DNA of 64,000 nucleotides from Ralstonia pickettii DTP0602 (lineage in GTDB: Bacteria; Pseudomonadota; Gammaproteobacteria; Burkholderiales; Burkholderiaceae). The notes under the pieces were generated by a model, which was not told where the DNA came from, searched no databases, and saw nothing but the letters and a program-made list of their open reading frames with translations. This document shows, in pieces, positions 28,175 to 64,000 of the stretch. A program made the translations under genes and the position numbers. Location of the stretch: the NCBI GenBank assembly GCA_000471925.1, contig CP006668.1:2825591-2889590 (forward strand), read 5' to 3'. Numbering within the stretch: position 1 is the first letter of the stretch; every line of letters begins with the position of its first letter.

Positions 28175-28236
28175 CGGTCAGTTTTTCTCACGAATTTGCG
28201 CGAGTATATATCGGTTGTGGTGGCGTGGATCGTTAC

Positions 28237-28252
28237 GCAGAATTGGGTACGC
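28237..28252 (+). repeat. Leftmost dispersed 16-bp motif copy (variant GCAGAATTGGGTACGC)
   Basis: Plus-orientation copy in the LysR/LysE divergent region, differing at two positions (AATTGGG for AAACGGG) from the array consensus. The same variant recurs at 42244-42259. About 34.5 kb from the array. Confidence 0.8.
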
Positions 28253-42097: not shown

Positions 42098-42113
42098 GCG
42101 TACCCGTTTCTGC
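42098..42113 (-). repeat. Dispersed 16-bp motif copy
   Basis: GCGTACCCGTTTCTGC on the plus strand, the exact reverse complement of GCAGAAACGGGTACGC. Followed by GTACC, giving the extended form GGTACGCAGAAACGGGTACG. Confidence 0.85.
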
Positions 42114-42243
42114 GTACCTTGCCGCGATCCCCGGAAGCGCGTTAAGCGGCCTTCAGGAACCGGCCCCATCGGCTATGGCGTCGGTGTAATCGCACTACGA
42201 ACCCCGTCGCACGCGCAGCCAGAAACATGCTGGCGAGAGCAAA

Positions 42244-42259
42244 GCGTACCCAATTCTGC
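42244..42259 (-). repeat. Dispersed 16-bp motif copy (variant)
   Basis: GCGTACCCAATTCTGC, complement GCAGAATTGGGTACGC, the same variant as at 28237. 146 bp from the copy at 42098. Confidence 0.8.
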
Positions 42260-42669
42260 GTGACTGGCACCGGCAGGAGGAAGGCCGTATTGCGCGCCTC
42301 GCACGCTATGAGGGCGGGGCATTTACTGAAGCCGCCGACCGCTGTTGCCTCCGGCAAGCCCGGCCCGGCTCTAACACGGGCATCGCGTCAACGCCTTCGG
42401 CTGCGCTGCGCGCGGCGCATCAGATTCCCGCCCGCGTAGGCCGATACGGTTCACCGACGTAGGTGACAAAACAGTTCAAGCACATAGGTAACTGGTTTCT
42501 ACCTTGGCTATCCGGGCCAAGGAGGGCGGAACCCAGCGGTTCAAACAACGACAACATGTCACCAGCAGCGAAGCCCGCCGAGCACCGACCAGATGCCAAC
42601 CCCAGGGCAGGACGTAGGGCACTTCCAGTGCAAACCGTAGCACCAGACGCACCAACAACGAACCAGCCC

Positions 42670-44720: not shown

Positions 44721-44722
44721 GG

Positions 44723-45736
44723 CTAGCTGTTCCCGGCGCTGAGCCGCTCGTCAAGCGCGCGCGAAAGGCCAGCCAGCGCCGGATGGCGTGCGGTAATGAC
44801 GTGGACCGACACGGCTTCCAGCCACCCGCGCATGCGCCCCTTGGCGACAAAGCGCTCGGCAAACGACGAGGCCTGCAGCGCCGGCACGAAGCGCGGCAGG
44901 ATGCCGCCGCCGAGGTAGACGCCACCACGTGCGCCCAGCACCAGCGCAATGTCGGCCGCGACCGAGCCGAGCAGCCCGAAGAACACGGCCATGGTGCGCT
45001 GGCACAGCGGGTCATTGCGCTCGAAAGCGCCGGCGGTGACCTGGTCCGGCTGCAGCGGAGCGAGCAAAAGCGTACCCGTTTCTGCGGCCAGTGCGGCATG
45101 GATTTGCGACAGTCCGCTGCCCGACAAAAGCCGCTCCGCCGACACGCGCCCGATGTTGCGATGGGCGGCGCGCCAGGCCACCCATTCATCGTCGGTGTCC
45201 GGCATCAGTTCGATATGCCCGCCCTCGCCCGCCAGCGGCACGGCCTGCCCGCCCGGCGCGGGCACCAGGCCCGACACGCCCAGCCCGGTGCCGGGCCCCA
45301 ACAAGGCCAGCGGTGCGGCGCGTACCGCCGTGCCGGGGCGCACCTGTTCCAGCCCGTCGGCGGGCAAGTGCGGCAAAGCGAGCGCCAGCGCGGTGAAGTC
45401 GTTGATCGCCACCAGCGTGTGCAGCCCGAGCGCGCGCCGCATGCCGTCGATCGAGAACGACCAGTTGTGGTTGGTCAGCCGCACCTGGTCCCCGGTCACC
45501 GGGTTGGCCAAGCCGATCGCCGCGTGGCGCGGCACCGCCTGGCCGGAGGCGGCGAGGCCGTCCAGGTACTGGCGCAGCGCCGCTTCGAGCGACGGGAAGT
45601 CGACCACCTTCAGCGCGGTGACGGGGCCGATCTGCATCGGTGCTGTTTCCAGCGCGAAGCGCACGTTGGTGCCGCCGATGTCGCCCAGCAGGCGCGGGAA
45701 GGCGGCGGAAGACGGTGTGGAAGCAGTCGCGGCCAT
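44723..45736 (-). CDS. glk: Glucokinase
   Basis: 337 residues from ATG 45736 (three codons after an alternative Met). ATP motif LLGDIGGTNVRFAL, ATP/sugar motif GPGTGLGVSGLV, and GEGGHIELMP as in the E. coli-type Glk. It phosphorylates glucose for the zwf branch. Between the RLLSGSGLSQIHAAL helix and the next conserved helix the sequence reads AETGTLL, which is exactly the translation of an embedded 16-bp motif copy (45069-45084). The corresponding E. coli segment is a variable loop, so the motif is probably tolerated. Confidence 0.95.
   Translation of the reverse strand: MAATASTPSSAAFPRLLGDIGGTNVRFALETAPMQIGPVTALKVVDFPSLEAALRQYLDGLAASGQAVPRHAAIGLANPVTGDQVRLTNHNWSFSIDGMRRALGLHTLVAINDFTALALALPHLPADGLEQVRPGTAVRAAPLALLGPGTGLGVSGLVPAPGGQAVPLAGEGGHIELMPDTDDEWVAWRAAHRNIGRVSAERLLSGSGLSQIHAALAAETGTLLLAPLQPDQVTAGAFERNDPLCQRTMAVFFGLLGSVAADIALVLGARGGVYLGGGILPRFVPALQASSFAERFVAKGRMRGWLEAVSVHVITARHPALAGLSRALDERLSAGNS
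45069..45084 (-). repeat. 16-bp motif copy inside the glk coding sequence
   Basis: GCGTACCCGTTTCTGC on the plus strand, perfect complement of GCAGAAACGGGTACGC. On the coding (minus) strand it is read in frame as Ala-Glu-Thr-Gly-Thr in a loop of glucokinase. It is the only copy in the window found inside a gene. Confidence 0.9.
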
Positions 45737-45764
45737 TGGCGTCACCTCGGATCAGTCGTTGGGA

Positions 45765-46445
45765 TCAGGCCTTGAACACATCAAACCCGTGCCGGTGCCG
45801 CGACACCACCAGGCTGACCGGCAACTCGGGCGTCGGACCCTGCAGCGCGCGTTCGAGCACCTCGGCCTTGGTGGCGCCGCTGACCGCCAGGAACGCGCGC
45901 TCGGCCGCCAGCAGCGCGGCCAGGTTCAGCGTGATGCGCGCGTGCGGCGCGGCCGCCGGATGGGTGATCACATAGCCCGGCGTGGGATCGCTCAACGCGC
46001 TCTCCAGTTCGGGCGCATCCGGGAACAGCGAGGCAGTGTGGCCGTCCTCGCCCATGCCCAGCACCACCACGTTGGGCTGGCGGAAGGCGCGGTTGGCACG
46101 CGCCACCGCCTGTTCAGGCTCGGCGGCGTCCTGCGCGTCGGCGATCAGCGGCAGGAAGGCGGCGCTGCCGGCAGCTTCGCGCAGCAGGTGCGCGCGCACC
46201 AGCGCGGCGTTGCTGTCGGGATGGTCCGGCGGCACCACGCGCTCGTCGACTAGCGTCACCGTCACAGCTTCCCAACGTACCGGCCGGTAGCGCAGGCGCT
46301 CGAACATCGCCACCGGCGAGCGCCCCCCCGAGACCGCCAGCACCGCCCAGCCGTTCACGCGGATGGCAAGTTCCAGCGCATTGCTGATCGAGATGGCCAG
46401 CGCCTCGGCCTGGTCCATTGGCGTGGGATGTTCAAACAGGCGCAT
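45765..46445 (-). CDS. pgl: 6-phosphogluconolactonase
   Basis: 226 residues, NagB/DevB type: VLAVSGGRSPVAMFERL, TVTLVDERVVPPDHPDSNAA and LGMGEDGHTASLFP are the family signatures. It opens 6-phosphogluconolactone made by Zwf. It lies 46 bp after zwf and 28 bp before glk. Confidence 0.95.
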   Translation of the reverse strand: MRLFEHPTPMDQAEALAISISNALELAIRVNGWAVLAVSGGRSPVAMFERLRYRPVRWEAVTVTLVDERVVPPDHPDSNAALVRAHLLREAAGSAAFLPLIADAQDAAEPEQAVARANRAFRQPNVVVLGMGEDGHTASLFPDAPELESALSDPTPGYVITHPAAAPHARITLNLAALLAAERAFLAVSGATKAEVLERALQGPTPELPVSLVVSRHRHGFDVFKA

Positions 46446-46491
46446 GATGGTTTCCTTTGCAATTCAGGCGGGCGCTGCGGCGTGGCATCGC

Positions 46492-47955
<1,464 letters not shown>

Positions 47956-48044
47956 GCTGAGCTCCTTGATTCATTGTTGCAGCCATTGAGACCGAAGGCC
48001 GAGTTGCGGCCAGTTTACGTGAGTCGCCCCGGCTTGGCGAGGCA

Positions 48045-48060
48045 GCGTACCCATTTCTGC
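48045..48060 (-). repeat. Dispersed motif copy in the zwf/edd promoter region
   Basis: GCGTACCCATTTCTGC, complement GCAGAAATGGGTACGC (one change from consensus). It sits in the 166-bp region between the divergent zwf and edd starts. Confidence 0.85.
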
Positions 48061-48121
48061 GTACTCCGTGCAGTGCGCGGCAAAGTGCGCTAGGCTGAAG
48101 GCTCCCCCGCAGGAGAACCCC

Positions 48122-50020: not shown

Positions 50021-50030
50021 GCGCCTGCGT

Positions 50031-50966
50031 TCAACCCAGGTTGTGCGCCGGCTGCCGCTGGCCGCCGGCCGGCCGTGGCGCGGAGGGGGCGGGCGCCCCC
50101 TCGCTCACCTTCACCGCGCCGGGCACGGCCGACGCACCCGGCACGTGCAGTTCCTGGATCGGCACGGCGAGCTTGCAGCCGGCGCCTTCCAGCACTTGCT
50201 TGATGCGCTCGTAGAAGGCGAAGCGCACGTTCCAGTAATCGTCGTTCGAGGTCCAGTAGCGCACGTTCAGCGTAATGCCCTGCTGCGTGTAGTTGATCAC
50301 CATCGTCTCCGGCACGGGCTCCTCCAGCAGGCGCGGCTCACGCACCAGCATCTCGCGCAAGGCTTCCAGGCCGCGCGCTGCAGGTCGCTGTCGAAGGTCA
50401 CCGTGGCCTCGATATCGGCGCGGCGCGTGGCGTTCTCGCTGTAGTTGGTGATCGCGCTGCCCCACAGCTTGCCGTTGGGCACGCGCAGGCAGACGCCGTC
50501 GAAGGTGGTCAGCTCGCTCATGAAGAGGCCGGTCTCGCGCACGGTGCCGGCCACGCCCTGCGCATCGATGTACTGCCCCACGCGAAACGGCCGCAGCAGC
50601 ACCAGCATGATGCCCGCGGCAATGTTCTGCAGCGTGCCCTGCAGCGCCAGCCCGATGGCAAGGCCCGCGGCGCCCAGCATGGCGATGATGCTGGCGGTCT
50701 GCACGCAACTGCGACAGCACCAGCACGATGGTGAGCACGCGCACCATCCACTGCAGCGCATTGGCCAGCAGCGGGCGCATGGTTGCATCCACGTGGGTGC
50801 CGCTGAGGGCGCGCCGCATAGCCCCGGCCACGCGGCCTGACAGCCACCAACCGGCGATCAGGATCAAGATGGCCGCCAGGCAGTTCATGCCCTGGTTGAT
50901 GGCGAAGTGGACCAGGTAGGTCCAGCCGGCCTCCAGCTTGTCGGCGTCGATAAAGTTGAGGTCCAT
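50031..50966 (-). pseudogene. MscS-family mechanosensitive channel gene with two compensating frameshifts
   Basis: From ATG 50966 one frame gives the N-terminal membrane helices (MDLNFIDADKLEAGWTYLVH … VRVLTIVLVLSQL) and, further on, the C-terminal cytosolic part (VPETMVINYTQQGITLNVRY). The pore helix and middle beta-domain (ASIIAMLGAAGLAIGLALQG, LLRPFRVGQYIDAQGVAGTV) lie in another frame, 50297-50788. The shifts fall near 50704 and 50382, apparently a net loss of two and of one base, so the frame returns. Either a double mutation in a dead gene or two base-calling errors in GGG-rich stretches. Confidence 0.85.
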
Positions 50967-51031
50967 GGGCGCGGCTCCGTTTGTTGTCCAGGTTGTTGTC
51001 GGGATCTGGTGGCGCTGCCGCGGGTTTCGCG

Positions 51032-51047
51032 GCGTACCCGTTTCTGC
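51032..51047 (-). repeat. Dispersed 16-bp motif copy
   Basis: GCGTACCCGTTTCTGC, perfect complement of the consensus, 66 bp upstream of the MscS start. Confidence 0.85.
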
Positions 51048-51236
51048 GTGCCGCGACTGGAGTCGGTTCGCTCTCCTGCCGCTCAAGGATCGGCGTCTAA
51101 TTTGACAAATTGATGCACGTTGAATACACGATGTCAGACGATCACCGACAAAGCCGGGGTGCACACCACAGAGCAGGTGACAAGCAGAGCGGACATTGGT
51201 TTCCGGTGCCTGCGAGGCTGGCCCGCTTGCAGGACC

Positions 51237-51265
51237 CGCCATCCCTTATGGAATAAGGGATGGCG
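51237..51265. repeat. Perfect 13-bp inverted repeat
   Basis: CGCCATCCCTTAT and ATAAGGGATGGCG flank a 3-base loop GGA. There is no T-tract on either side, so it is not an ordinary terminator; it could be a processing signal, operator or mobile-element relic. It lies in the gene-free stretch between the MscS-type and MFS genes. Confidence 0.7.
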
Positions 51266-51485
51266 GCGGTCCGGGGAATAGCGCCGAAGTATTGGGAGGA
51301 AGCACTGGGTACGGTGCGCCCAGTCGCCCGTGATGGCGTGGGAGCGCGCTGCACGGGCTATATGGCGGGAGTGCGTGGGCATAGCGCGCTGGCCGCGTAG
51401 CCAGCCGGCGCCGGCGCCAACTTTCAGCGACGAAAGTTGGCGGACGGCCCCGGGCTACCGGCCCGGCGGCGCCTGGGGCTTGCAC

Positions 51486-51501
51486 GCAGAAACGGGTACG
51501 C
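51486..51501 (+). repeat. Dispersed 16-bp motif copy
   Basis: Perfect GCAGAAACGGGTACGC on the plus strand, 52 bp beyond the stop of the MFS gene. Confidence 0.85.
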
Positions 51502-51553
51502 TTGCCGCTCGCCGCGCCAAGTGGCAGCGGCTCAGGCAAGGTCATGGAGCCGC

Positions 51554-52801
51554 TCAGGTCGGATGGTCGTGCAGCTTGTCGCGCGAGGCCAGCGCCGGGA
51601 ACAGCCGCATCCACACCGCCACCACCAGCAGCGTGCCGACGCCGCCCAGGATCACCGCGCCCACCGGTCCCAGCAGCGCCGCGGTAACGCCGGACTCGAA
51701 CTCGCCCAGCTGGTTTGATGCGCCGATGAACACCGAATTGACGGCACCGACGCGCCCGCGCATGTCGTCCGGGGTATCGAGCTGGACCAGCGTGGAGCGC
51801 ACCACCACGCTGATCATGTCGGAGGCACCCAGCACCACCAGCGCCGCCATCGACAACGGCAGCCAGGTCGACACACCGAACACCACGGTGGCCACGCCAA
51901 ACAGCGCCACCGCGCCGAACATGATGCGTCCGGCACGCCGGTTCAGCGGGTTTCGCGCCAGCCACAGCGCCATTGCCAGCGCGCCGATTGCGGGTGAGGA
52001 GCGCAGCAGACCCAGGCCCCACGGACCGGTGTGCAGGATGTCACGCGCATAGATCGGCAGCAGCGCCGCGGCGCCGCCCAGCAACACCGCGAACAGGTCC
52101 AGCGAGATCGCGCCGAGCAGCACCGGCCGGCCGCGGATATAGGTAAAACCGGCAAAGACCGTGCGCACGCTGACCGGTGCGGTCAGGCGCTGCGCGGCCT
52201 GGCGCAGCCGGATACCGCTGACCAGCACGGCGGCGATGGTGAACAGCGTCGCGCTCAGCGCGTAGACCACGTCCGGCCCCGCCACATAGGCAAAGCCGCC
52301 AATGGCCGGGCCGATGATGATGGCGGTCTGTCCGGCCGAACTCGCCAGCGCCACCGCGCGCGGCAACTGGCGCGGCGTCACCACGCTGGGTAGCAGCGCC
52401 TGCAGCGTCGGGTTCTCGAACGCGCGCGTGGCGCCGATCAGCGCGACAAAGAGAAAGATATGGTGGCTGTCGATCCAGCCGGTCAGGCTCGCCACCGCCA
52501 TGCCCCCGGCCAGCAGCGCCTCGATCGACTGGCAGGTACGCACGATGCGGCGCCGGTCGAAGCGGTCGGCCACGTGGCCCGACATCAGGATCAGCACCAC
52601 CGAGGGCAGGAACTGCACCAGGCCAACCATGCCGAGCATCAGCGGGTCGCGCGTCAGGTCGTACATCTGCCAACCCACCGCCACGGTAAAGATCTGGTAG
52701 CCGATGGTGGTGCACAGGCGCGCGAACCAGTAGCGGCGAAAAACGGCGTCGCCGAAGACGCTGTCCGGCTCGGCGGCCGGGACGGTGGCAGGGGAAGACA
52801 T
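51554..52801 (-). CDS. MFS transporter, enterobactin-exporter (EntS)-like
   Basis: 415 residues with 12 predicted membrane segments. The motif-A-like loop is SGHVADRFDRRRIVR, and the second half contains RSTLVQLDTPDDMRGRVGAVNSVF, typical of the EntS/DHA3 branch. The substrate is unknown; EntS relatives export siderophores or drugs. No siderophore genes are adjacent. It is followed by a gene-free ~300 bp with a hairpin and a motif copy. Confidence 0.88.
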   Translation of the reverse strand: MSSPATVPAAEPDSVFGDAVFRRYWFARLCTTIGYQIFTVAVGWQMYDLTRDPLMLGMVGLVQFLPSVVLILMSGHVADRFDRRRIVRTCQSIEALLAGGMAVASLTGWIDSHHIFLFVALIGATRAFENPTLQALLPSVVTPRQLPRAVALASSAGQTAIIIGPAIGGFAYVAGPDVVYALSATLFTIAAVLVSGIRLRQAAQRLTAPVSVRTVFAGFTYIRGRPVLLGAISLDLFAVLLGGAAALLPIYARDILHTGPWGLGLLRSSPAIGALAMALWLARNPLNRRAGRIMFGAVALFGVATVVFGVSTWLPLSMAALVVLGASDMISVVVRSTLVQLDTPDDMRGRVGAVNSVFIGASNQLGEFESGVTAALLGPVGAVILGGVGTLLVVAVWMRLFPALASRDKLHDHPT

Positions 52802-53012
52802 GGATGCAGGAGGGAGGTGCGGGGAGATTGCTGTGCGTCACGATCCGCCGGGACGCCAGCCGGGCCGTCTGGGCCGTCTGGTGCGAGCGTGCGGTGCACA
52901 AAGGCAAGATTCTAAAGCGCCTGCTGAATTGCTGCATACAGATGCCGACAATCGCACACCTTGATTGGGCAAATATCGACCGCAGATGTCGGCATTACGC
53001 CTCTACCAGGCA

Positions 53013-53040
53013 AAAACGGCTCGCAATTGCGAGCCGTTTT
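53013..53040 (-). terminator. Terminator of prfC
   Basis: AAAACGGCTCGCAA and TTGCGAGCCGTTTT form a perfect 14-bp inverted repeat with no loop other than the central AATT. On the minus strand this gives a strong stem with a run of T, 23 bp after the prfC stop. It is symmetrical, so it should also work on the plus strand. Confidence 0.9.
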
Positions 53041-53062
53041 AAATTTCAGGCGCGATGCGCGA

Positions 53063-54664
<1,602 letters not shown>

Positions 54665-54864
54665 GGCAGCGGAGTTTGACTGGGAAATATTGGATGTGGC
54701 CCGGCGGGTGGCCGGAACCAGGTCCGGCAGCGCCGCGGGGCGGCGGTGGGCCGGGCCCTGCGGGCACGCGAGGGAATGAATGGGGCGCTATTTTACCGGT
54801 TCGCGCGCGGGCGCGGGCTGAATCGGCCGGCGAATCCATCCGATCCGGCGTCGTACCTATCCGA

Positions 54865-55836
54865 TCACTCCGCCAGCTTTTCCGCCGGCTTGCCGCGCAG
54901 GCTGCCGAACTGCAACGCGTACTGGCGCGTCAGCTCGGCGCCAAAGAAGAAGATCTGCGCCGAGTAATACACCCACAGCATCAGCGCCACCACCGAGCCC
55001 GCGGCCCCGTATGAAGAGGCCACGGCGCTGTTGCCCAGGTAGAGGCCGATCAGCCGCTTGCCCATTGCAAACAGCAACGCGGTGATGACCGCGCCCATGG
55101 TGACGTCGCGCCAGGCGATGCGTGCGTTGGGCAGCATCTTGAAAATCACCGCGAACAGCGTCGTCACCACGACAAAGGAAAAGGCGGTCGAGATCACGTC
55201 CGCGACCGGCGCAAACCACGACTGGGTCCACAGCTGGCCCCAGATGCGCTCGACCACGGCCAGCGCCGCATTGACGATCAGCGACACCAGCAGCATGAAG
55301 GCCAGCACCAGCACCACGCTGAACGACAGCACCCGTGCGCGCAGCAGTTGGCGCCAGCCGGCCGTCTTGGGCACCGGCACGTGCCAGATGTCGTCCAGGC
55401 TGCTCTTGAGCTCCACAAAGGCGCTGGTGGCGCCGACGATCAGGATGCCCATCGCGATCAGTGCGGCCACGCCGCTGCCACCGGCGCGGTGCGTGGCCGC
55501 CAGGATCTCCTGGATCGCCGCGGCGCCCTGCTCGCCCACCAGGCCCTGGATCTGCGCGAAGATCTCGCCGCGCGCCGCTTCTGCGCCGAAGAACAGGCCA
55601 GCGATGGAAATCACCAGCACCAGGATGGGCGCCAGCGAGAACAGCATGTAGAACGAGAGCGCCGCGCCCTTGCTGGCAGCGCGATGGTCGAACCATGAAC
55701 TGACGGCCGCGGTGAACACGCGCAGCGTGCGCGTGCCGGTATGGCGGTCCGGCAGCCAGGACGGGCGGTTGGGCCGGGGCTGCGGGGTCCCGCTGCCGGC
55801 GGAAGGAGAGGACGGGTGCTCGGTCTTGTCGGTCAC
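54865..55836 (-). CDS. YihY/virulence factor BrkB family membrane protein
   Basis: 323 residues with six predicted membrane segments. The motif KGAALSFYMLFSLAPILVLV, the loop DDIWHVP and GSVVALMLWVYYSAQIFFFG are the YihY/BrkB signature. Inner-membrane protein of unsettled function (formerly called ribonuclease BN by error). The N-terminus is Pro/Ser-rich and probably disordered. It is preceded by a 200-bp gap from prfC on the same strand. Confidence 0.9.
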   Translation of the reverse strand: MTDKTEHPSSPSAGSGTPQPRPNRPSWLPDRHTGTRTLRVFTAAVSSWFDHRAASKGAALSFYMLFSLAPILVLVISIAGLFFGAEAARGEIFAQIQGLVGEQGAAAIQEILAATHRAGGSGVAALIAMGILIVGATSAFVELKSSLDDIWHVPVPKTAGWRQLLRARVLSFSVVLVLAFMLLVSLIVNAALAVVERIWGQLWTQSWFAPVADVISTAFSFVVVTTLFAVIFKMLPNARIAWRDVTMGAVITALLFAMGKRLIGLYLGNSAVASSYGAAGSVVALMLWVYYSAQIFFFGAELTRQYALQFGSLRGKPAEKLAE

Positions 55837-56023
55837 GGCCTGTGTGTTTGCCCGCGCCGCATGCCGGGGGCGTCTGCCGCCGCGTGTCGGGGGCGTCTGC
55901 GTTCATGATACTGCGCATTGCGGGCTTTGCCCAAGCGGGCGCGCCGGGGGCGACCTGCTACAGTAAGATCAGGCACACCAGCCGGCGCATCCGTTGCCCG
56001 CGCGCCGGCGCATGGAGGCACAC

Positions 56024-56224
56024 GTGACCCCGATTCTCTCCGCCCGCCCGGTGGCCGCACTCCTGATCATCGGCGTGCTGGGCTGCGCCGGCTGCGAACG
56101 CAGCCAGCCGGGCCCCAAACCCATTTCCGGGACGGCGTCCGACCGCCCTGCCGCGGGCACACCCGCCGCGCCCGCCAACCCGAACTCGTCCAGCTTGCCC
56201 CCGGCATCGGGTCCGGCCCGCTGA
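56024..56224 (+). CDS. Small lipoprotein
   Basis: 66 residues from GTG 56024, set by a GGAGG five bases ahead; ATGs further upstream are poorly supported. Signal peptide AALLIIGVLGC with lipobox VLGC at about residue 21, then CERSQPGPKPISGTAS and a Pro/Ala/Ser-rich tail, so a small anchored protein is likely. No family recognised. A motif copy lies 15 bp beyond the stop. Confidence 0.55.
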   Translation: MTPILSARPVAALLIIGVLGCAGCERSQPGPKPISGTASDRPAAGTPAAPANPNSSSLPPASGPAR

Positions 56225-56238
56225 ACGCGTCAGCGCGG

Positions 56239-56254
56239 GCGTACCCGTTTCTGC
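56239..56254 (-). repeat. Dispersed 16-bp motif copy
   Basis: GCGTACCCGTTTCTGC, perfect complement of the consensus, just after the small lipoprotein gene. Confidence 0.85.
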
Positions 56255-56729
56255 GTGGCTCGCGGGCTGGCCCGCACGCGCCGATCCGGGCCCACTGAAG
56301 CCCGTGAGTTGAAGTAAAGCCTTGCCGTTGCCGACGCTGTAGCCGGGGCTTTTGCCCGCGCCCGTTGTCCACGCCGTTACGCAAGTGCAAGGCTGATGTA
56401 ACCCAGTTTCAAACGTGCAACGGGGTGCAATGTCGCCCCGGCGCGGATGCCGGGGCGCGCTATCCCGCACCCGGCGCGTGCCACGAGCAGCATGCGCTGC
56501 ACGGTTGTGGCCACCGCGCGCGGGGGCGCTTTCCGCACGCGTTACAGCGGCGAAACCGATTGGTCCGCCAGCAGGCGAGCGTCCCCCGCAGCAATTCGGC
56601 CACCTCCCGCAAAGCCGCGTGGCACAAGGCTTTGCGGCCATTGGCACACTTGTCGCTCAGTATCCGCAAGGGACGCTGTACGCGTCAGTGACCATCAACC
56701 AGACTTTGCACGCAGGAGACTACCCAGCC
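56255..56729. other. Gene-free stretch
   Basis: About 475 bp with no convincing gene, terminator or repeat beyond the motif copy at its left edge. Short open frames here lack ribosome sites and look compositional. Confidence 0.4.
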
Positions 56730-56972
56730 ATGCGTCATCCGCCATCACGCATGACGGCGCGCCGGCGCTCATACCGGCTAGCGGGCCCGCCACCATCGGT
56801 GACGGACCTGCTTTCGCCGCCGCTGCTGCTCTATCCGCGCATCCACGCGCCGCCGGCCACGCCCGCCGTGCCGTGCGCGGCGATCGGCGTCGGCAAGGGC
56901 ATCGGCACGGAGAAGGGCGCGGGGTTCGCACGCGCCGCCTGCCGGCGCCATGCGGGCAAGCGGCGCGCCTGA
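56730..56972 (+). CDS. Possible small protein
   Basis: 80 codons from ATG 56730 with CAGGAGAC 15 to 8 bases upstream. The product is basic and Pro/Arg-rich (MRHPPSRMTARRRSYRLAGP), has no known domain, and could be a chance frame in GC-rich DNA. Listed because of the ribosome site only. Confidence 0.25.
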   Translation: MRHPPSRMTARRRSYRLAGPPPSVTDLLSPPLLLYPRIHAPPATPAVPCAAIGVGKGIGTEKGAGFARAACRRHAGKRRA

Positions 56973-57159
56973 CGGCACCCGCGCAACCGCATGTTCGGGC
57001 GCCGCAGGGCGCGGGCGTGCGGCGGTGCGTCACTGCCTCAGGGCCTCAGTGCCCCGGCACCGCAAACAGGACCATTGCAGGCTCGCGAGCCAGCGTACCT
57101 GCACGGATTTGTGCTCCGTCCCCCGGCGGGCACTTTTTTTCCACAGGGAGGCGCAGTCC

Positions 57160-57537
57160 ATGAAAGCCGGAATCTTTGCCGCCGCGCTGGCCGTCTGCTC
57201 CGGCAGCGCCATGGCGGCGAGCTACGCCTGGTTCGATCGACCCGACGAAGCCAGTGCCAACAGCCATGCGGCGGTCAGCAACGATATCTATGTGCGCGGC
57301 TGGGGCTGGGCATGGGGCGAGTTGCTCATGCGCCCCGATGCCCCGACAACCGCGCCGGCGCCGCAGGACGGCCGCCAGGCACGCGACATCCTGGACCGGC
57401 GCGACGCGGTGCCGTGGCGCCAGCATGACGAAAACGAACCGCCGCGCCATCCGCGCGGCAAGATCAGCATGAACCTCGCTGCCGCGGATGCGGACGGCGG
57501 CGCCGGGGCCGGGCGACCCCACAAGACTGTGCGCTGA
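57160..57537 (+). CDS. Hypothetical exported protein
   Basis: 125 residues from ATG 57160, with AGGGAGG eight to fourteen bases upstream. Signal peptide (FAAALAVCSGSAMAA) to about residue 20, then SYAWFDRPDEASANSHAAVS and a Trp-rich YVRGWGWAWGELLM. The C-terminal half is hydrophilic and probably disordered. No family recognised. It stands alone before the enhancer-binding regulator. Confidence 0.6.
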   Translation: MKAGIFAAALAVCSGSAMAASYAWFDRPDEASANSHAAVSNDIYVRGWGWAWGELLMRPDAPTTAPAPQDGRQARDILDRRDAVPWRQHDENEPPRHPRGKISMNLAAADADGGAGAGRPHKTVR

Positions 57538-57660
57538 CAGGCTGTGCGCTGACGTGCCAGCGGGCACGGGGAAAGGTGGAACTGGCGAGCGGACGTCGTC
57601 CGTTCCCCTTTCCTCTGGCGCCTGAAGCTGGCGCGCCGCGTTTTACCGCCGCTGTTACCT

Positions 57661-59028
57661 CTATTCCCCTGCCGGGGCCTGGCTCTCCACGCGGATATTG
57701 TGCTTGTGCATGAGCCGGTACAGCGTCACGCGCGACACGTTAAGCTCGCGCGCGGCTGGCACCACGTGAAAGCCGTGGCTGGCCATCACGGTACGGATCG
57801 CCTCGCGCTCGGCCTCTTCGCGAATCGCGTCGAGGGTCTTGCGCGGCAGTTCCGTGCCGCCATGCAGCTGCAGGTCCTCGGCGGTGATCTTGCGGTTGTC
57901 GGTCATCACGATGGCGCGCCGCACACGGTTGATCAGCTCGCGCACGTTGCCCGGCCAGGCGTACTGCATCATTGCCTGCGTCGCGCACGCCGAGAAGCCG
58001 CGGATGCGCCGGTGCGCCTCGTGCCCGTGCTCGGTCAGCACTGCGTTGGCCAGCTGCAGGATGTCCTCGCCGCGCTCGCGCAGCGGCGGGATGCTCAGCG
58101 TCAGCACGCACAGCCGGTGGAACAGGTCGGAGCGGAAGCGCCCGTCGGTTTGCGCCACCACCAAATCCACGTGCGTGGCGGAGATAATGCGCAGGTTCAG
58201 CGGGATCGACTGGTGCCCACCCAGGCGCGTGATGGTGCCTTGCTGCAGGAAGCGCAGCAGCGCCACCTGGCTTTCCAGCGGCAGGTCGCCGATCTCGTCC
58301 AGGAACAGCGTGCCGCCCTGCGCCTGCTCGATCCAGCCGATCTTGCGCTGGTTCGCGCCGGTAAACGCGCCCTTCTCGTAGCCGAACAGCTCGGACTGCA
58401 CCAGGTGCGAGGGAATCGCGCCGCAGTTGATGGCAATGAACGGTCCCTTGCGCCGGCTCGACGCATCGTGGATCGCCTGCGCGGCCAGTTCCTTGCCCGT
58501 GCCGGACTCGCCGGAGATGAAGACCGGCGCCTCGTTGTGCGCTACCTTGGCCAGCGAGCGGAACATCGCCCGCATGATCGCGCATTCGCCGATCATCGTG
58601 CCGCGCGAGGCGGGCTCCTGCACGCGCGCGCCGTGCAGCGAAGCCATGCCGTGCGCGTGCTTGAGCGTGTAGAGCAGCTCCTCCACCGAAAACGGCACGC
58701 GCACGTAGTCGATGCAATAGTCGCGGATCAGCCGGCGCACGCGCTCCTCGGCGAGCATGGCATCGGTGGTGATGGCGACCCACGCGACATGCAGGTACTG
58801 CAGCGCCTGCTCGAGCTGCACGAGTTCGGCATCGCTGTAGTCGGACTGCAGGTCGATCACGCCGGCCATCGGCGGACTGGCGCGCACGACGCGTTCGAGG
58901 TCGCGGATCTGCTGCACGCGGCGGACTTCCCATCCCGCGCCGAAGCTGGACGGGTCAAAACCAAAATCTTCATGACGCGACACGACCACGATCTGTGCAG
59001 TGCGTGACGCCTTGCACAGTCGGTCCAT
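57661..59028 (-). CDS. Sigma-54-type enhancer-binding regulator, VpsR-like
   Basis: 455 residues from ATG 59028 (GGGAG upstream); a GTG at 59157 overlapping the upstream stop would add 43 low-complexity residues. The N-domain (~1-130) is a degenerate receiver-like module; the AAA+ core has GESGTGKELAAQAIH, the sigma-54-contacting GAFTGA (EKGAFTGANQRK) and GGTLFLDEIGDLPLESQVAL; a Fis-type HTH closes it (ARELNVSRVTLYRLMHKHNI). GAFTGA is intact, so sigma-54 activation is likely. Relatives include Vibrio VpsR and Burkholderia exopolysaccharide regulators that respond to c-di-GMP. Confidence 0.87.
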   Translation of the reverse strand: MDRLCKASRTAQIVVVSRHEDFGFDPSSFGAGWEVRRVQQIRDLERVVRASPPMAGVIDLQSDYSDAELVQLEQALQYLHVAWVAITTDAMLAEERVRRLIRDYCIDYVRVPFSVEELLYTLKHAHGMASLHGARVQEPASRGTMIGECAIMRAMFRSLAKVAHNEAPVFISGESGTGKELAAQAIHDASSRRKGPFIAINCGAIPSHLVQSELFGYEKGAFTGANQRKIGWIEQAQGGTLFLDEIGDLPLESQVALLRFLQQGTITRLGGHQSIPLNLRIISATHVDLVVAQTDGRFRSDLFHRLCVLTLSIPPLRERGEDILQLANAVLTEHGHEAHRRIRGFSACATQAMMQYAWPGNVRELINRVRRAIVMTDNRKITAEDLQLHGGTELPRKTLDAIREEAEREAIRTVMASHGFHVVPAARELNVSRVTLYRLMHKHNIRVESQAPAGE

Positions 59029-59153
59029 CACGATCTCCCGGACGTTAGGCTTGTTCTTGGTTCCGGCACCCGTGGGCACTGCCGCGGCCTGGGGCCGTGG
59101 CGGGCGGTGGGGCTGAACTGGCTGCGGGCCGGCGCCCGCGCGCGACGTCGGTA

Positions 59154-59618
59154 TCACGAGCTGGACAGACTGCGGGACTGCTCGTCAGGCGCGGCAAGGT
59201 AATCCGCGCCCCCCTGGAGTTGCTCGCGGATGCGCCGTCGCACCGCCTCCTTCTCGCGCATCAGCTCCAGGCTCGGCGCCTGGGGCGACTGGCCGGAATA
59301 CTGGTAATAGAGCGTCTTGTAGGTCAGCTGGCTCAGGATCCATTCCTGCAGCAGCACGCGCTGGCGCGCCATCTCGCCCTCGAGCAGGCGATGGCGGCGC
59401 AGCAGGTTCTGCACGGCCGCGCGCGCGGTATCGCTGAGTTCGCTGTCTTCGGCAAGCAGGGCCGCCACGTCGGCGGTAGCGCCGTCATGGGCCGCCTTGC
59501 TGAGGGGTGCTTCGCCTGCAGCTTCCCCCCGAGCAGCCCAGGCGCGATGATGAATGGATCGGTTGACGGACTCCCTGATGGGCCCGATGGCGGGTCGCCG
59601 GATCTCTCCTGCGGTCAT
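59154..59618 (-). CDS. Hypothetical protein upstream of the enhancer-binding regulator
   Basis: 154 residues, no recognised domain. The middle is strongly helical (VQNLLRRHRLLEGEMARQRV, LLQEWILSQLTYKTLYYQYS), so a coiled-coil or adaptor is possible. Its stop lies 125 bp ahead of the regulator's ATG (or overlaps its alternative GTG), so the two are likely in one operon. It is preceded by ~800 bp without genes. Confidence 0.6.
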   Translation of the reverse strand: MTAGEIRRPAIGPIRESVNRSIHHRAWAARGEAAGEAPLSKAAHDGATADVAALLAEDSELSDTARAAVQNLLRRHRLLEGEMARQRVLLQEWILSQLTYKTLYYQYSGQSPQAPSLELMREKEAVRRRIREQLQGGADYLAAPDEQSRSLSSS

Positions 59619-59918
59619 GATTATCCCCGTTGAACAACATCCCCCGGCACTACACGTCTGCGGTTACCACTTGTCAGTCTTGGAATATTTGTCCGCGTGG
59701 CGCGCGTGTTTCCCGCACGCTCCCGGTTGGTGGCTTGCCGTCTTCTTGTCTGACGGTCTGTTCCGGCGATGTCCCCGTACTGGCGGACGGCGCCGAAGGC
59801 TCTCGGTAATCTCCGGCATCCTGCCGCATGCACCGGAGTCAAGAAGGGGCGCCTTGCCGCGCCCCTCTTTGCCACGCCTATAGTTCAGTGCATTTGGGGC
59901 GGTTTGTCCAGCCCTGAG

Positions 59919-59955
59919 TGGGTGACTTACACCCAATCTCATACTTTGGTATGAG
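59919..59955. promoter_or_regulatory. Two adjacent perfect inverted repeats
   Basis: TGGGTG-ACTTA-CACCCA (59919-59935) and, two bases later, CTCATAC-TTTG-GTATGAG (59938-59955). Both are perfect. They have no T-tract, and their closeness suggests a tandem operator or an RNA structure rather than a terminator. Confidence 0.6.
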
Positions 59956-60037
59956 CCCGCCAGCACACCCCCGCAAGCCGATCCGCGCCGCCTCGCCACC
60001 GCACCATAGGACAGGTAAATGTCTGCTTACATGGTAC

Positions 60038-60053
60038 GCAGAAACGGGTACGC
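60038..60053 (+). repeat. Dispersed 16-bp motif copy
   Basis: Perfect GCAGAAACGGGTACGC, preceded by GGTAC as in the extended form. Confidence 0.9.
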
Positions 60054-60184
60054 TTTCGCACCCCGAACGGGTGATCGCGGCCGTCTCGCCGAGGAATTTC
60101 GGACGGTCGTGCGGAGCTTCCCGGGCGCTGCTTGCCGCAATCAGTGAGCGCGGCTGCGGCACGCTTGGGAAAGTCAAGCGGCAC

Positions 60185-60200
60185 GCAGAAACGGGTACGC
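60185..60200 (+). repeat. Dispersed 16-bp motif copy
   Basis: Perfect GCAGAAACGGGTACGC, 47 bp from the next copy at 60232. Confidence 0.9.
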
Positions 60201-60231
60201 ACCGCTTGCCGTGCGGGGGATGAGGGGGTAC

Positions 60232-60246
60232 GCAGAAACGGGTACG
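60232..60246 (+). repeat. Dispersed 15-bp motif copy
   Basis: GCAGAAACGGGTACG followed by G instead of C, preceded by GGTAC. Last singleton before the array at 62725. Confidence 0.9.
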
Positions 60247-60331
60247 GAATGAGGTTTCGGACAGCCCCCTGAAATACGCGGCCAGCACCAGCCATAGGTA
60301 CTGCATCGGGATGACGCCATCAAGACAATGG

Positions 60332-60358
60332 AAAAAGGGACGACTTTCGCCGTCCCTT
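60332..60358 (-). terminator. Terminator of the NCS2 permease gene
   Basis: AAGGGACG (60335-60342) and CGTCCCTT (60351-60358) form a perfect 8-bp stem, with five A at 60332-60336 giving the U-tract on the minus strand, 60 bp after the stop at 60418. Confidence 0.85.
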
Positions 60359-60417
60359 CTTTGTCCTGCACTACCTGCAATGTCCCGCCCTTTGTCTCAT
60401 CCGTACGTGCCCATGGC

Positions 60418-61788
60418 TCAGTGACCCGGCAGGTAATAGAACTTGAAGACAAAGACCGCCGCGATGATCCACACCATCACGGGCACGCCGCGCGCGCGCC
60501 CGGTCAGCAGCTTGAGCGCCGCGTAGCTGATAAAGCCGAACGCGACACCATTGGCGACCGAGTACGTGAACGGCATGCCGAGCGCGGTCATCACCGCGGG
60601 CACGACTTCGGTCACGTCGTTCCAGTCGATCTCGAGCAGCTCGCGCAGCATCAGACACGACACATAGAGCAGCGCCGGTGCGGTGGCATAGGCAGGCACG
60701 GTGCCCGCCAGCGGTGCGATGAACAGCGCCGCCAGGAACAGCACTGCCACGGTCACCGCGGTCAGGCCGGTACGGCCGCCCGCCTGCACGCCCGAGGCGC
60801 TTTCGATATACGCGGTGGTGGACGACGTGCCGAGGAACGAGCCCGCCATGATCGCCGTGCTGTCAGCCATCAGCGCCTTGTTCAGCCGGCCCATGCGCCC
60901 GGCCTTGAGCAGGCCCGCGCGGTTGGCCACGCCCATCAGCGTGCCGGTGGCGTCGAACAGCTCCACCAGGAAGAACACCAGCACCACGTTGATGATGCCG
61001 ATCGACAAGGCCGCGCTGATATCGAGCTTGAACAGCGTGGGGCTGAGCGACGGTGGCGCGGAGAATACGCCGTGGAATGTGTTGCCGGCAAAGACGAAGC
61101 TCAGCAGCGTGGTGAGCAGGATGCCGATCAGGATCGCGCCCTTCACGCGCAGGTGGTCCAGCGCCACGATCACGAAGAAGCCGACGATGGCAAGCACTGC
61201 CGGGGGCTGGTGCAGGTCGCCGATGGTCACCAGCGTGGCCGGGCTAGCGGTGACGATGCCGGCGTTCTTCAGCGCGACGATCGCCAGGAACAGGCCGATG
61301 CCCGCGGTGATCGCCACGCGGATCGAATGCGGGATGCCGTTGACGATCATCTCGCGCACGCGGAACAGCGTCACCAGCAGGAACAGGCAGCCGGAGATAA
61401 AGACCGCGCCGAGTGCGGCCTCCCACGCAAAGCCCATGCCCTTGACCACGGTGTAGGCGAAGTAGGCGTTCAGGCCCATGCCTGGCGCCAGCGCGATCGG
61501 GTAGTTGGCGTAGAAGCCCATGATCAGCGTGCCGATCGCCGCGGCCACGCAGGTGGCGACGAACACCGCGTCCTTGGGCATGCCAGCGTCGCCCAGGATC
61601 GACGGGTTGACGAAGATGATGTACGCCATCGTCAGGAACGTGGTGATGCCGGCGAGGATCTCGGTGCGGGCATTGGTCTGGTGCTCGCGCAGCTTAAACA
61701 CGCGCTCGATCAGCGAAGGCGCGGCGTGCGGCTGGGGCGGATTGGCGGAAGACGTGCCCGGCTTGGAAGCGGGTTCCGGGATCGACAT
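60418..61788 (-). CDS. NCS2-family purine permease (guanine/hypoxanthine, AzgA-like)
   Basis: 456 residues, 12-14 membrane segments. Signature stretches are ILAGITTFLTMAYIIFVNP, LAPGMGLNAYFAY (the substrate-binding motif) and GSFLGTSSTTAYIESASG. It resembles the AzgA/GhxP branch that takes up guanine, hypoxanthine or adenine by proton symport. It stands alone with its own terminator. No purine riboswitch was recognised in its upstream region. Confidence 0.93.
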   Translation of the reverse strand: MSIPEPASKPGTSSANPPQPHAAPSLIERVFKLREHQTNARTEILAGITTFLTMAYIIFVNPSILGDAGMPKDAVFVATCVAAAIGTLIMGFYANYPIALAPGMGLNAYFAYTVVKGMGFAWEAALGAVFISGCLFLLVTLFRVREMIVNGIPHSIRVAITAGIGLFLAIVALKNAGIVTASPATLVTIGDLHQPPAVLAIVGFFVIVALDHLRVKGAILIGILLTTLLSFVFAGNTFHGVFSAPPSLSPTLFKLDISAALSIGIINVVLVFFLVELFDATGTLMGVANRAGLLKAGRMGRLNKALMADSTAIMAGSFLGTSSTTAYIESASGVQAGGRTGLTAVTVAVLFLAALFIAPLAGTVPAYATAPALLYVSCLMLRELLEIDWNDVTEVVPAVMTALGMPFTYSVANGVAFGFISYAALKLLTGRARGVPVMVWIIAAVFVFKFYYLPGH

Positions 61789-62197
61789 GAATGGTCTCCT
61801 GATATCGTTATCGTGTCCGCGACGGCTGCTGCGCCTGCTGGTGATGGCATCATCGGCCCACTACGCGGCAAGCGTACTCTGGTCCACGCCAGCCCCGCTG
61901 CGCGCTGGCGCGGGCGAATAAGCGATATGCAAAAGGCGTGATGATCCCACAGCGGCCGCCGGTGCTGCCAGCGCCAGCCGGCTGCGCTCCCGCATGCGCC
62001 CTTGGGGCCGCCCCCAGCTTGACGCTGGCGGCAATCCCCCGTATAAACCCGGCTAGATTCAAGTGACGAGGCAACAGTTCATTCGTTAGCCACCGTCTGG
62101 TACTTCGGTTGTCCATGGTGTCCTTTCCTTGAGTTCCCCGTGTCGGATGACGTGTTCGTCATGCGATCTTTTATGTCCTTTTTCTGGAAAGCAAATC
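61789..62197. other. Leader and spacer between the permease and the cold-shock gene
   Basis: About 410 bp without genes. The last ~100 bp before the cold-shock start are T-rich (CTTTTATGTCCTTTTTCTGG) and probably form the long 5' leader usual for csp mRNAs. No riboswitch-like structure is evident. Confidence 0.45.
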
Positions 62198-62401
62198 ATG
62201 CAAACCGGTATCGTCAAGTGGTTCAACGACGCCAAGGGCTTCGGCTTCATCAAGCCGGACGCGGGTGGTGACGACCTCTTCGCCCATTTCTCGGAAATCC
62301 GCTCCGACGGCTTCAAGTCGCTGCAGGAAAACCAGCGCGTGCAGTTCGAAGTCAAGAATGGCCCGAAGGGCCTGCAGGCCGCGAACATCACCCCGCTGTA
62401 A
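62198..62401 (+). CDS. Cold-shock protein (CspA family)
   Basis: 67 residues, one cold-shock domain. RNP1 is KGFGFIKP and RNP2 is DLFAHFSEI, both present; it starts [18 protein letters not shown], the usual betaproteobacterial form. It binds single-stranded nucleic acid as an RNA chaperone. A strong terminator follows 44 bp after the stop. Whether it is cold-induced cannot be told from the sequence. Confidence 0.95.
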
Positions 62402-62444
62402 GCGTTGACCGCCGGCGCGCTCCGTGCGCGCCGCACAACGTGAG

Positions 62445-62471
62445 AACCCCGCCCCCGTGGCGGGGTTTTTT
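62445..62471 (+). terminator. Terminator of the cold-shock gene
   Basis: AACCCCGCC and GGCGGGGTT form a perfect 9-bp stem with loop CCCGT, followed by TTTTTT and further T. Confidence 0.95.
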
Positions 62472-62724
62472 GTTTTTAGCGCCCCGCGTTTTCGTACGGC
62501 AGTGGGCGCTGTCTGGCGGCGCTCGCCACTGTTCCCACCGGCACCTGTTCGTGCGTGCTTTCGGCTGGCCCTTCCAGAACTGCAGGTCTACAGCCGGTCA
62601 ACAGGCCCCGCATCGCGCGTGCCAATACACTGTTGCGAGACTGTCACGCCACGCCTGGCGGCCCGCCTGAATTGCCAAGGGACTTGAGTTCTCCAGACCC
62701 TCAGCATTAGACCCTCAGCCTGAC
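62472..62724. other. Gene-free spacer before the motif array
   Basis: About 250 bp with no gene or repeat recognised; the last gene on this side of the array is the cold-shock gene. Confidence 0.5.
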
Positions 62725-63669
62725 GCAGAAACGGGTACGCATTGTTGCAGCACCGGTGGCATGCCCTGGCCTTCTTGCTCGCAGAAACAGGTACGCCCGG
62801 GCCGCCATTGCCACTTTTGCGCAGAACTCCCACACGCAGAAACGGGTACGCCCAGCTGCCGCGCGACCGCCGCCACCACCTTCCAGTCCCGCAGAAACGG
62901 GTACGCGCCTCAAGCGCGTTGCAAATCCATCACCACCAAAGACGCGCCACGCCGTCTTGCCTGTGCCGACATATCCACACTTCGGCCGACGCAGAAACGG
63001 GTACGGTCGCTGCTGTACCGAGGCAGCCCCCCTTGCCAGTACAGATATCGAACGGCCTCGCAGAAACAGGTACGCCGGCAACGTCCGGAAGCTGGGCCGC
63101 GAGCCGCAGAAACGGGTACGGCCAACCGTGGCGGCATGCGGCGATCGTGGGTGGCTGTGGCGGTTATGCCGCTGGCACACGCAGAAACGGGTACGCGGCG
63201 CTATTTGGGCAAGCAGCTACGTATACGTCGAGTGTAAGTACTAGCTTTTATTATAAATCATGTGTATCATAGAAACTCGGGCCAACTCCCGGCTCTATTC
63301 GCCAAAGTGCGCACGCAGAAACGGGTACGGGTCGGTGCAACGAGCGCCCCTGCGGGCACGCAGAAACAGGTACGCTGGGCAGCCAACCCCGTGTTGTGGC
63401 GTTTTCGCAGAAATGGGTACGGCGCAGAAACGGGTACGCAGTTGTGGCGGGAGACGCTGATTCAGGACCCGCGCAGAAACGGGTACGCTTTCGGGGCACG
63501 GCACGCAGAAACAGGTACGCTTTACCGGCAGCGGCGCCGGCGGCAGACAGGACGACGAACCAGTTTCTGCGGGGATAACCAGGGTCCGGCGCAGATATCC
63601 ACCGGAATCGACCAGGGAATGGCAGGTAAACCGCGTATACCGGTCCGCCGCACGCAGAAACGGGTACGC
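62725..63669 (+). repeat. Array of 15 direct 16-bp motifs (GCAGAAACGGGTACGC family)
   Basis: Copies start at 62725, 62781, 62836, 62891, 62991, 63060, 63106, 63181, 63315, 63360, 63407, 63424, 63473, 63505 and 63654, all in plus orientation. Most are exact; 62781, 63060, 63360 and 63505 carry ACAGG, 63407 carries ATGGG. Early spacings are 56, 55 and 55 bp (five helical turns); later ones vary from 17 to 149 bp. A degenerate inverted copy lies at 63556-63570 and a partial one at 63591. There is no gene in the array; apparent frames (AETGT, QKRVR, RNGYA) are just the repeat translated. Confidence 0.95.
63221..63285. other. AT-rich patch within the array
   Basis: Around CTAGCTTTTATTATAAATCA this 65-bp stretch is far more AT-rich than the rest of the window and falls in the widest gap between neighbouring plus-strand copies in its half of the array (63181 to 63315). 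It could be an unwinding element or a rep-related promoter (TATAAAT). Confidence 0.5.
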
Positions 63670-63685
63670 TTTCACCCCTCGCCAT

Positions 63686-63720
63686 TGTGGACAAGCCTGT
63701 GGGACACCCAGGTTATCCCC
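63686..63720. promoter_or_regulatory. DnaA-box-like sequences beside the iterons
   Basis: TGTGGACAA (63686-63694) differs at one base from the complement of the DnaA box TTATCCACA. TTATCCCC (63713-63720) matches the first six bases of the box. They directly precede the 22-bp iterons, as in many plasmid-type origins. A third, weaker match is the GTGGACAAC at 63935. Confidence 0.65.
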
Positions 63721-63824
63721 GCAGAAACCAGTACGCGCCTGCCGCAGATATGGGTTCGGCCTGCCGCAGATACAGGTTCGCCCCTTCGCAGAATCGAGTA
63801 CGTTCGTCCGCAGATTCGGGTTCG
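63721..63824 (+). repeat. Five iterons at about 22-bp spacing
   Basis: Copies begin at 63721, 63744, 63766, 63788 and 63810, spaced 23, 22, 22 and 22 bp (two helical turns). They share GCAGAWWCRRGTWCG with the array motif but are more degenerate (GTTCG in three, GTACG in two). Such tandem iterons with two-turn spacing are the binding sites of Rep_3-type initiators in plasmid and chromid origins. Confidence 0.85.
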
Positions 63825-64000
63825 CGGGGGTTGTTTTTTCCCTTACGAATCAAGGCGCTGAACTTCACGTATACGGTTTACAAGTAGTTAACCCGTATCG
63901 GTATCGTTTACTGGTAGTGGATGGCTGGCGAACCGTGGACAACCCTGCCGGGTTGCCCACCGTCCGCCACCATGCGACCAGCCATTGGATCCTCCGGCTT
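63825..64000. other. Probable unwinding region and rep promoter region of the origin
   Basis: Directly after the iterons come TTGTTTTTTCCCTTA and an AT-richer stretch with an imperfect direct repeat (ATACGGTTTACAAGTAG at 63871 and GTATCGTTTACTGGTAG at 63901, 30 bp apart). An inverted repeat follows, GTGGACAACCC / GGGTTGCCCAC (63935-63945 and 63950-63960, one mismatch, loop TGCC). This fits a DNA unwinding element plus an autoregulatory operator. The rep or par gene itself would lie beyond the window. Confidence 0.6.

Follow-up and report, generated by a model that had tools for sequence, protein, structure and literature searches.

The 64,000-nucleotide stretch analysed here (the window) was found to be the final 64 kb of contig C2 (2,889,590 b) of Ralstonia pickettii DTP0602, a genome of 8.13 Mb in three contigs (G000), and its right end is the chromosome-2 replication origin of a Cupriavidus. 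The end of the window was found to contain an array of 16-bp repeats (iterons), followed by the presence of repA (ATG at C2:103), parA (2003-2662) and parB (ending at 3681). These genes lie across the join of C2, which was treated as circular, so that the sequence past the right edge of the window is the start of C2 (locus L005); the join is supported because the array and repA are contiguous in homologous loci.

The RepA_C (PF04796), ParA and ParB models of Pfam were all matched past the right edge, and a gene for a two-winged-helix Rep initiator was found to adjoin the iterons, as is the mark of an iteron-type origin. The overall GC skew was negative to the left of repA and positive to the right in all five regions, with a small amplitude (0.005-0.025). 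When intergenic sequence alone was counted, the left side was negative in four of the five regions and positive in G014. A preliminary description, made from the letters of the window, had proposed an iteron origin of a secondary chromosome and had named as checks a GC-skew inversion and a Rep_3/RepA-like gene with parAB beyond the edge. The origin is borne out by repA, parA and parB and by the change of skew sign; the initiator was found to be of the RepA_C type, and no Rep_3 model was matched.

Two classes of iterons

The strong class was found to contain 15 copies of CGCAGAAACRGGTACG on the same strand, 14 of them exact and one with a single mismatch, at start-to-start distances of 17-149 bp (Table 1), in agreement with the 15 almost perfect copies described earlier. 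No site at one mismatch or fewer was found in 20 mononucleotide shuffles of positions 60001-64000. The array is followed by the presence of a weak class of five degenerate iterons, the presumed initiation iterons, which are phased at 23/22/22/22 bp.

Both classes were found to recur. Among 55 homologous loci found with RepA, 51 were used (40 from Cupriavidus and relatives and 11 of Ralstonia type), L118-L121 being dropped at 36-39% identity or as partial. The longest phased chain contained five iterons at 23/22/22/22 bp in 51/51 loci; these agreed with CGCAGAAAYRGGTACG at 13.8 of 16 positions on average, whereas the remaining sites in the 1.7 kb before repA, on average 16 per locus, matched at 15.6 of 16. 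Because the five-member degenerate chain recurs in every locus, the weak set is maintained as weak and phased and is not decaying. Judged from this comparison, the two iteron classes are real and conserved, as the preliminary description had held for the window when it separated precise, widely spaced copies from degenerate copies phased at about 22 bp. In the Ralstonia-type origins (L103-L112 and L117) the five phased iterons were kept and the strong array was found to be partly inverted.

Distribution of the motif around the origin

The origin with its array had first been placed at 62725..63960. It was found there, but the motif continues well outside, with nine more copies at one mismatch or fewer in the window (42099 to 60231). 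In the whole genome, searched at up to two mismatches, exact copies were found on C2 to the left and to the right of the origin; C3 had a single copy and C1 had none. Among 24 genomes of the same genus, G000 included, 23 were found to contain 28-41 copies at one mismatch or fewer, the exception being a 54%-complete genome with 4 copies. The reversed pattern gave 0-3 copies per genome, and of 16 genomes of other families 13 contained no copy and three contained one.

In nine genomes made up of 2-4 contigs, the dispersed copies, counted as exact CGCAGAAAYRGGTACG beyond the array, are centred on the origin. Chromosome 2 was found to contain 159 of them (13-22 per genome), and 143 of the 159 lie within -30 to +130 kb of repA, where an even spread would place 8.9. 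This halo of sites is dense on the left to about -25 kb and sparse on the right to about +120 kb, and array and dispersed copies together bring each chromosome 2 of the nine genomes to 22-35 well-defined 16-bp sites.

Conservation and placement of the halo sites

The flanks of the halo sites were analysed in 40 loci, the 11 Ralstonia-type loci being left out; one of the 40, titled Ralstonia sp. 25mfcol4.1, has a Cupriavidus-like layout. Of the testable loci, 32 of 38 had a site near -7.2 kb and 38 of 39 had one near -3.6 kb. The 16-bp core was found to contain 1.95 and 1.92 bits per column at these two positions (32 and 37 non-redundant loci), against 0.23-0.34 in the 60-bp flanks, and the 10 bp adjoining the core contained 0.28-0.55 bits; as the sites were chosen by a motif match (two mismatches or fewer), the core value is inflated, and the presence of the sites is high in itself. 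In 40/40 non-Ralstonia-type loci the repA start was found to be preceded, at about 60 bp, by an inverted copy (two mismatches or fewer); this copy is weaker evidence than the halo sites because the leader alongside is itself conserved.

The dispersed sites were found mostly between genes. In six regions, five from Cupriavidus and one from Ralstonia, 78 of 91 sites were wholly intergenic, against 15.7% of the sequence; the gene calls are crude, these counts coming from a retrained caller, and an earlier caller with antisense frames gave 59 of 78 in five regions. Gaps between convergent genes were enriched, with 22 of the 78 intergenic sites in 9.3% of the intergenic length. For 40 shuffled motifs a mean of 0.075 sites was found in five regions, against 78 outside the array for the real motif. 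The recurrence and conservation of the sites suggest that they are held by selection. The contrary explanation, that they are neutral debris, iterons left behind when the origin region was rearranged in the past, fits the sites being nearest the origin but is very improbable, as debris would decay and the core stands far above its flanks at both positions.

Halo in Ralstonia and other genera

Five Ralstonia-type genomes were found to contain 21-27 exact copies each. In G056 the sites at one mismatch or fewer were found three times at about -3 kb from repA, followed by +3.5, +4.0, +5.2, +8.2, +14.8, +20.0, +20.2, +21.0, +22.1 and +24.0 kb, with two exact copies farther out, so that the dense side is opposite to that of Cupriavidus. 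In G083 and G125 (three and two contigs), taken as Ralstonia from their Ralstonia-type layout, 23/23 and 22/22 copies were on the repA contig.

Between -64 and +119 kb in G000, no more than ten predicted frames, antisense ones among them, matched the 60-kb Ralstonia region, repA, parA and parB included. One shared neighbour was a frame at -3.7 to -2.2 kb in G000 and at -2.7 to -1.5 kb in Ralstonia. Just beyond it a cluster of sites was found, at about -3.6 kb in Cupriavidus and -3 kb in Ralstonia, with one copy in G063; because it adjoins a frame common to both genera, this cluster may be an ancestral site. Apart from it, the sequences compared indicate that the two genera share the nearness of the sites to the origin and not the gene neighbourhood.

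The PF04796 initiator was found in only 6 of the 25 genera of the family sample, and TrfA (PF07042), considered as the initiator of other Burkholderiaceae chromids, in 1 of 6 genomes. G040, placed in the same genus as the window, was found to be without a close RepA ortholog, array or halo. It was considered as a natural knock-out and set aside as not a clean test, its zwf and edd homologs lying apart at 72-78% identity.

Small elements of the origin and halo sites of the window

An alignment of the origin, covering 11 of the 51 loci, was used for the elements beside the phased block. The DnaA-box-like sequences of the preliminary description were found in a weak form, as two one-mismatch matches to the consensus TTATCCACA and a further stretch that abuts phased iteron 1; the letters before this iteron read TTATCC or TTGTCC in 11/11 aligned loci. 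Beside the block lies a conserved element, CGTATACGGTTTACAAGTAGTTAACC, a candidate unwinding or start element. In the 11 loci the block is followed by the presence of a conserved CGTATACGGTTTAC..GTAGT.AA stretch and of the inverted repeat that had been described beside the iterons.

The AT-richer DNA claimed on this side was recovered in a moderate form. Positions 63801-63950 had an AT fraction of 0.48-0.50, higher than the 0.31-0.45 of most 100-bp windows nearby, but the peak, 0.58 over 100 bp, was found at 63201-63300, inside the array. In the 51 loci the 120 bp past the phased block contained an AT fraction of 0.50 (0.47-0.54).

Table 1. Iterons, origin elements and halo sites located in the window (distances in kb are relative to repA).
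Feature	Position	Strand	Remarks
Strong-class array, 16-bp iterons	62724..63668	+	starts 62724, 62780, 62835, 62890, 62990, 63059, 63105, 63180
Strong-class array, further starts	63314, 63359, 63406, 63423, 63472, 63504, 63653	+	63406 with 1 mismatch
Weak-class phased block, 5 degenerate iterons	63720..63824	+	63720, 63743, 63765, 63787, 63809; presumed initiation iterons
Inverted iteron, 2 mismatches	63556..63571	-	
DnaA box with 1 mismatch, TTGTCCACA	63686..63694	-	against consensus TTATCCACA
DnaA box with 1 mismatch, ATATCCACA	62971..62979	+	against consensus TTATCCACA
DnaA-box-like stretch GTTATCCCC (TTATCCCC)	63712..63720	+	abuts phased iteron 1; from alignment
Conserved element CGTATACGGTTTACAAGTAGTTAACC	63868..63893	+	beside phased block; alignment of 11 loci; putative role
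Inverted repeat CAACCCTGCCGGGTTG	63940..63955	.	small changes across 11 aligned loci
Halo site, exact (-3.9 kb)	60231..60246	+	
Halo site, exact (-3.9 kb)	60184..60199	+	
Halo site, exact (-4.1 kb)	60037..60052	+	group copy in 38/39 testable named loci
Halo site, exact (-7.9 kb)	56240..56255	-	counterpart near -7.2 kb in 32/38 testable named loci
Halo site, exact (-12.6 kb)	51485..51500	+	
Halo site, exact (-13.1 kb)	51033..51048	-	
Halo site, 1 mismatch (-16.1 kb)	48046..48061	-	between divergent zwf and edd
Halo site, exact (-19.0 kb)	45071..45086	-	within glk (glucokinase) coding sequence
Halo site, exact (-22.0 kb)	42099..42114	-	
Possible halo site, 2 mismatches	42245..42260	-	
Possible far halo site, 2 mismatches	28236..28251	+	

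The Entner-Doudoroff genes glk-pgl-zwf and the divergent edd were found at 44723-50020 of the window, about 14-19 kb from ori2. The halo site within glk has the same gene context in four of the five Cupriavidus regions examined (G000, G014, G044 and CH34).

The initiator and likeness to known systems

The predicted structure of RepA was found to resemble RctB and RepE in a fold comparison. In a sequence search of solved structures with RepA no initiator was listed at E <= 1, and a fold prediction from the single sequence was unusable (pLDDT 33).

The closest described case is CHR2 of C. metallidurans CH34, in the available text of which (PMC2864759) the same array is given as at least 12 elements upstream of repA with the consensus CGCAGAA(A/T)(C/T)(A/G)GGTACG(C/T), proposed as RepA sites, together with DnaA boxes with one mismatch and a GC-skew switch at repA-parA-parB. 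The array had been called unusual in the preliminary description; it was thus already published, and what is unusual is the halo, which lies outside the stretch then described. The elements in that text are those near repA, and neither dispersed copies nor two classes are mentioned in it. New here, as far as the available text of that account extends, are the conserved two classes and the origin-centred halo. The open-access text searched yielded no description of a two-class structure or of an origin-centred halo in two genera, and no match to the letters of the motif.

The ori2/RctB system of V. cholerae, so far as the available parts of the sources cited here describe it, resembles the present one in being an iteron chromid with a similar initiator fold, with inhibitory or titrating sites (here the presumed role of the strong sites) and with a site in the promoter of the initiator gene. 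In V. cholerae, RctB sites that lie outside the origin, some 40 kb from ori2, are reported to lower chromosome-2-type copy number, presumably by titration (PMC3937223), and a later ChIP-seq is reported with eight bound regions on Chr1 and six on Chr2 (PMC3937223, PMC6090056, PMC11711613). Whereas Vibrio uses a 12-mer and a 39-mer, one motif in two grades was found here; it is without GATC, no conserved main-chromosome copy was found, and the 13-22 dispersed copies per genome are divided between the two sides of the origin and recur across genera. Because the motif is free of GATC and the 1510-bp origin region contains two, where 5.3 would be expected, a Vibrio-like Dam-dependent binding of iterons is not evident; methylation elsewhere is possible, a dam homolog being reported in CH34 (PMC2864759).

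In E. coli, datA and the DnaA boxes near oriC are likewise initiator sites concentrated by the origin for which titration has been proposed in the available text (PMC12371093, PMC3937223). The initiator there is DnaA and not RepA and is also switched between active and inactive states, whereas the copies found here are nearly confined to one replicon. The iteron motif was considered as a DnaA box of the datA type and rejected, since on direct reading it neither contains nor resembles TTATCCACA. The c2/c3 origins of B. cenocepacia contain repA with clustered 19-21-bp iterons (PMC4948915). In the part of that source available, dispersed copies appear only in the legend of S1 Table, which notes that iteron-like repeats occur all over the genome and that c2 has another cluster at a distance of 140 kb (PMC4948915).

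Proposed mechanism and alternatives

We hold it to be moderately probable, at about 0.6, that this Cupriavidus chromosome-2 origin uses two classes of one RepA iteron, of which the strong sites titrate the initiator and the weak phased set fires. The five weak, helically phased iterons and the conserved AT-richer element would form the initiation complex. The strong iterons would act as a sink by titration or handcuffing, formed by the 15 of the array and the dispersed copies of each genome, nine in ten of which lie within -30 to +130 kb. If RepA binds both classes in the presumed order of affinity, free RepA would occupy the strong sites first, and the weak set would be filled and the origin opened only when RepA per origin exceeds the sink. 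On firing, the array would be doubled immediately and the greater part of the halo in a matter of minutes: with forks assumed to move at 500-1000 nt/s, replication of 120 kb would take 2-4 min and that of half of the chromosome 24-48 min. The doubled sink would lower free RepA and so block early re-firing, and repA is probably repressed through the one inverted strong site in its leader. The layout found suits such a scheme, which requires numerous strong sites that are occupied early, a small set of weak, cooperative ones at the origin that are occupied late, and a sink that firing soon doubles.

Several findings weigh against this mechanism. The array alone already doubles at initiation, so that titration by itself gives no reason for a spread over 150 kb. 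In G014 and G053 some of the halo positions recur at steps of about 3 kb (-15.8, -18.8, -21.8 and -24.4 kb), a pattern that may reflect a spatial role. In the nine genomes 16 of 175 dispersed exact copies were off chromosome 2 (0-4 per genome), and 13 of 91 sites were not wholly intergenic. The site near -7.2 kb was missing from the searched span in 6 of 38 testable loci, L067 having a copy at -9.4 kb. A third genus, G063, was found to contain the array, but beyond it the repA contig had just two copies and a further contig one, so that a large halo is not obligatory. Related genomes also share ancestry and are not independent, and binomial p-values therefore overstate the case.

The spread and the regular steps would be accounted for if RepA bridged the halo to the array and folded a 150-kb domain, silencing the origin or aiding segregation, with titration secondary. 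The sites being dispersed and not pooled in the array, their intergenic, convergent-gap placement and the recurrence of the 3-kb steps on the Cupriavidus left arm agree with such folding, and for V. cholerae the available text of PMC11711613 reports bridging structures that RctB forms on its 29/39-mer sites. Single unphased sites would presumably be weak anchors, and the spacing and the dense side differ between the genera. Folding as the main role is rather unlikely.

It is improbable that RepA reads the origin only and that the halo is read by a different DNA-binding protein, acting in nucleoid occlusion, SMC loading or membrane anchoring. The origin-biased scatter is like that of the sites of other origin-domain factors, but the same 16-bp core was found in the array, the leader site and the halo, and the candidate parS palindrome, with two copies near repA in each of five genomes, is another sequence. 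A use of the sites as transcriptional operators, through which RepA or another factor would regulate genes near the origin, is slightly more improbable still. Divergent genes flank 23 of the 78 intergenic sites, as at zwf/edd, but divergent gaps make up 39% of the intergenic length, which gives no promoter enrichment, whereas convergent gaps are enriched and few neighbour genes are common to Cupriavidus G000 and Ralstonia G056.

Beyond the two-class titration mechanism, chromosome 2 of Cupriavidus and Ralstonia may run a titration clock, in which the halo, conserved across the genera, sets the initiator per origin and limits firing to once per cycle with neither an initiator switch nor sequestration of the Dam/SeqA type; this extension is tentative, and we regard it as doubtful. 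Selection would then act on the total sink near the origin and not on most single sites, so that the dense side and the neighbour genes would be free to change between genera. It has long been asked whether replication can be timed by titration alone. Modelling of E. coli, in the available text of PMC9640692, is reported to show that titration alone fails at high growth rates and that only a near-origin placement, held not to fit E. coli, prevents premature re-firing. Chromosome 2 appears to have the placement required by this theory. Alongside the few RctB titration sites of Vibrio it would provide a counterpart from a second lineage, and the titration model would become directly testable in laboratory strains; because most dispersed sites are intergenic, many could be edited without touching proteins.

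Neighbouring genes and candidate parS

The palindrome CTTTCAGCGCTGAAAG was found in two exact copies, at C2:1977-1992 just before parA and at C2:2825-2840 inside parB, and as two exact or one-mismatch copies near repA in each of five genomes; it also occurs in the Ralstonia-type G125 and is likely to be the parS of chromosome 2. The iteron motif was rejected as parS, being non-palindromic and distinct from this candidate at parA/parB. A DUF3701 phage-integrase-type gene adjoins parB on the opposite strand (L005:3948-5666), and frames like cold-shock proteins, read by eye, flank the array-repA unit (window 62198-62401 and L005 about 1420-1620).

Copies off chromosome 2

Twenty off-origin places were inspected, namely the 16 copies off chromosome 2, one two-mismatch place on G000 C1 and three of the four places in G040. 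Four motif copies, in three of the nine genomes, were on contigs taken, by length, as main chromosomes and were found to contain no shared flanks. A crtS-like main-chromosome site did not emerge from these places: the closest matches on G000 C1 have two mismatches and no conserved main-chromosome locus was found, although crtS itself need not resemble iterons.

Five related places, L124, L128, L132, L139 and L140, align mutually across the site, which lies in a single large island gene that by eye is methyltransferase-like; the motif encodes a QKRVR peptide in the translations of L128 and L132, and the iteron sequence in this gene is probably incidental. Other off-origin places look prophage-like or mobile, judged by eye from translations. 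The places at G000 C3:393952 (L134) and C3:345014 (L135) contain common flanks, which are also found in C3 of G007 (L131), and the flanks of 345014 are shared with places in G046.
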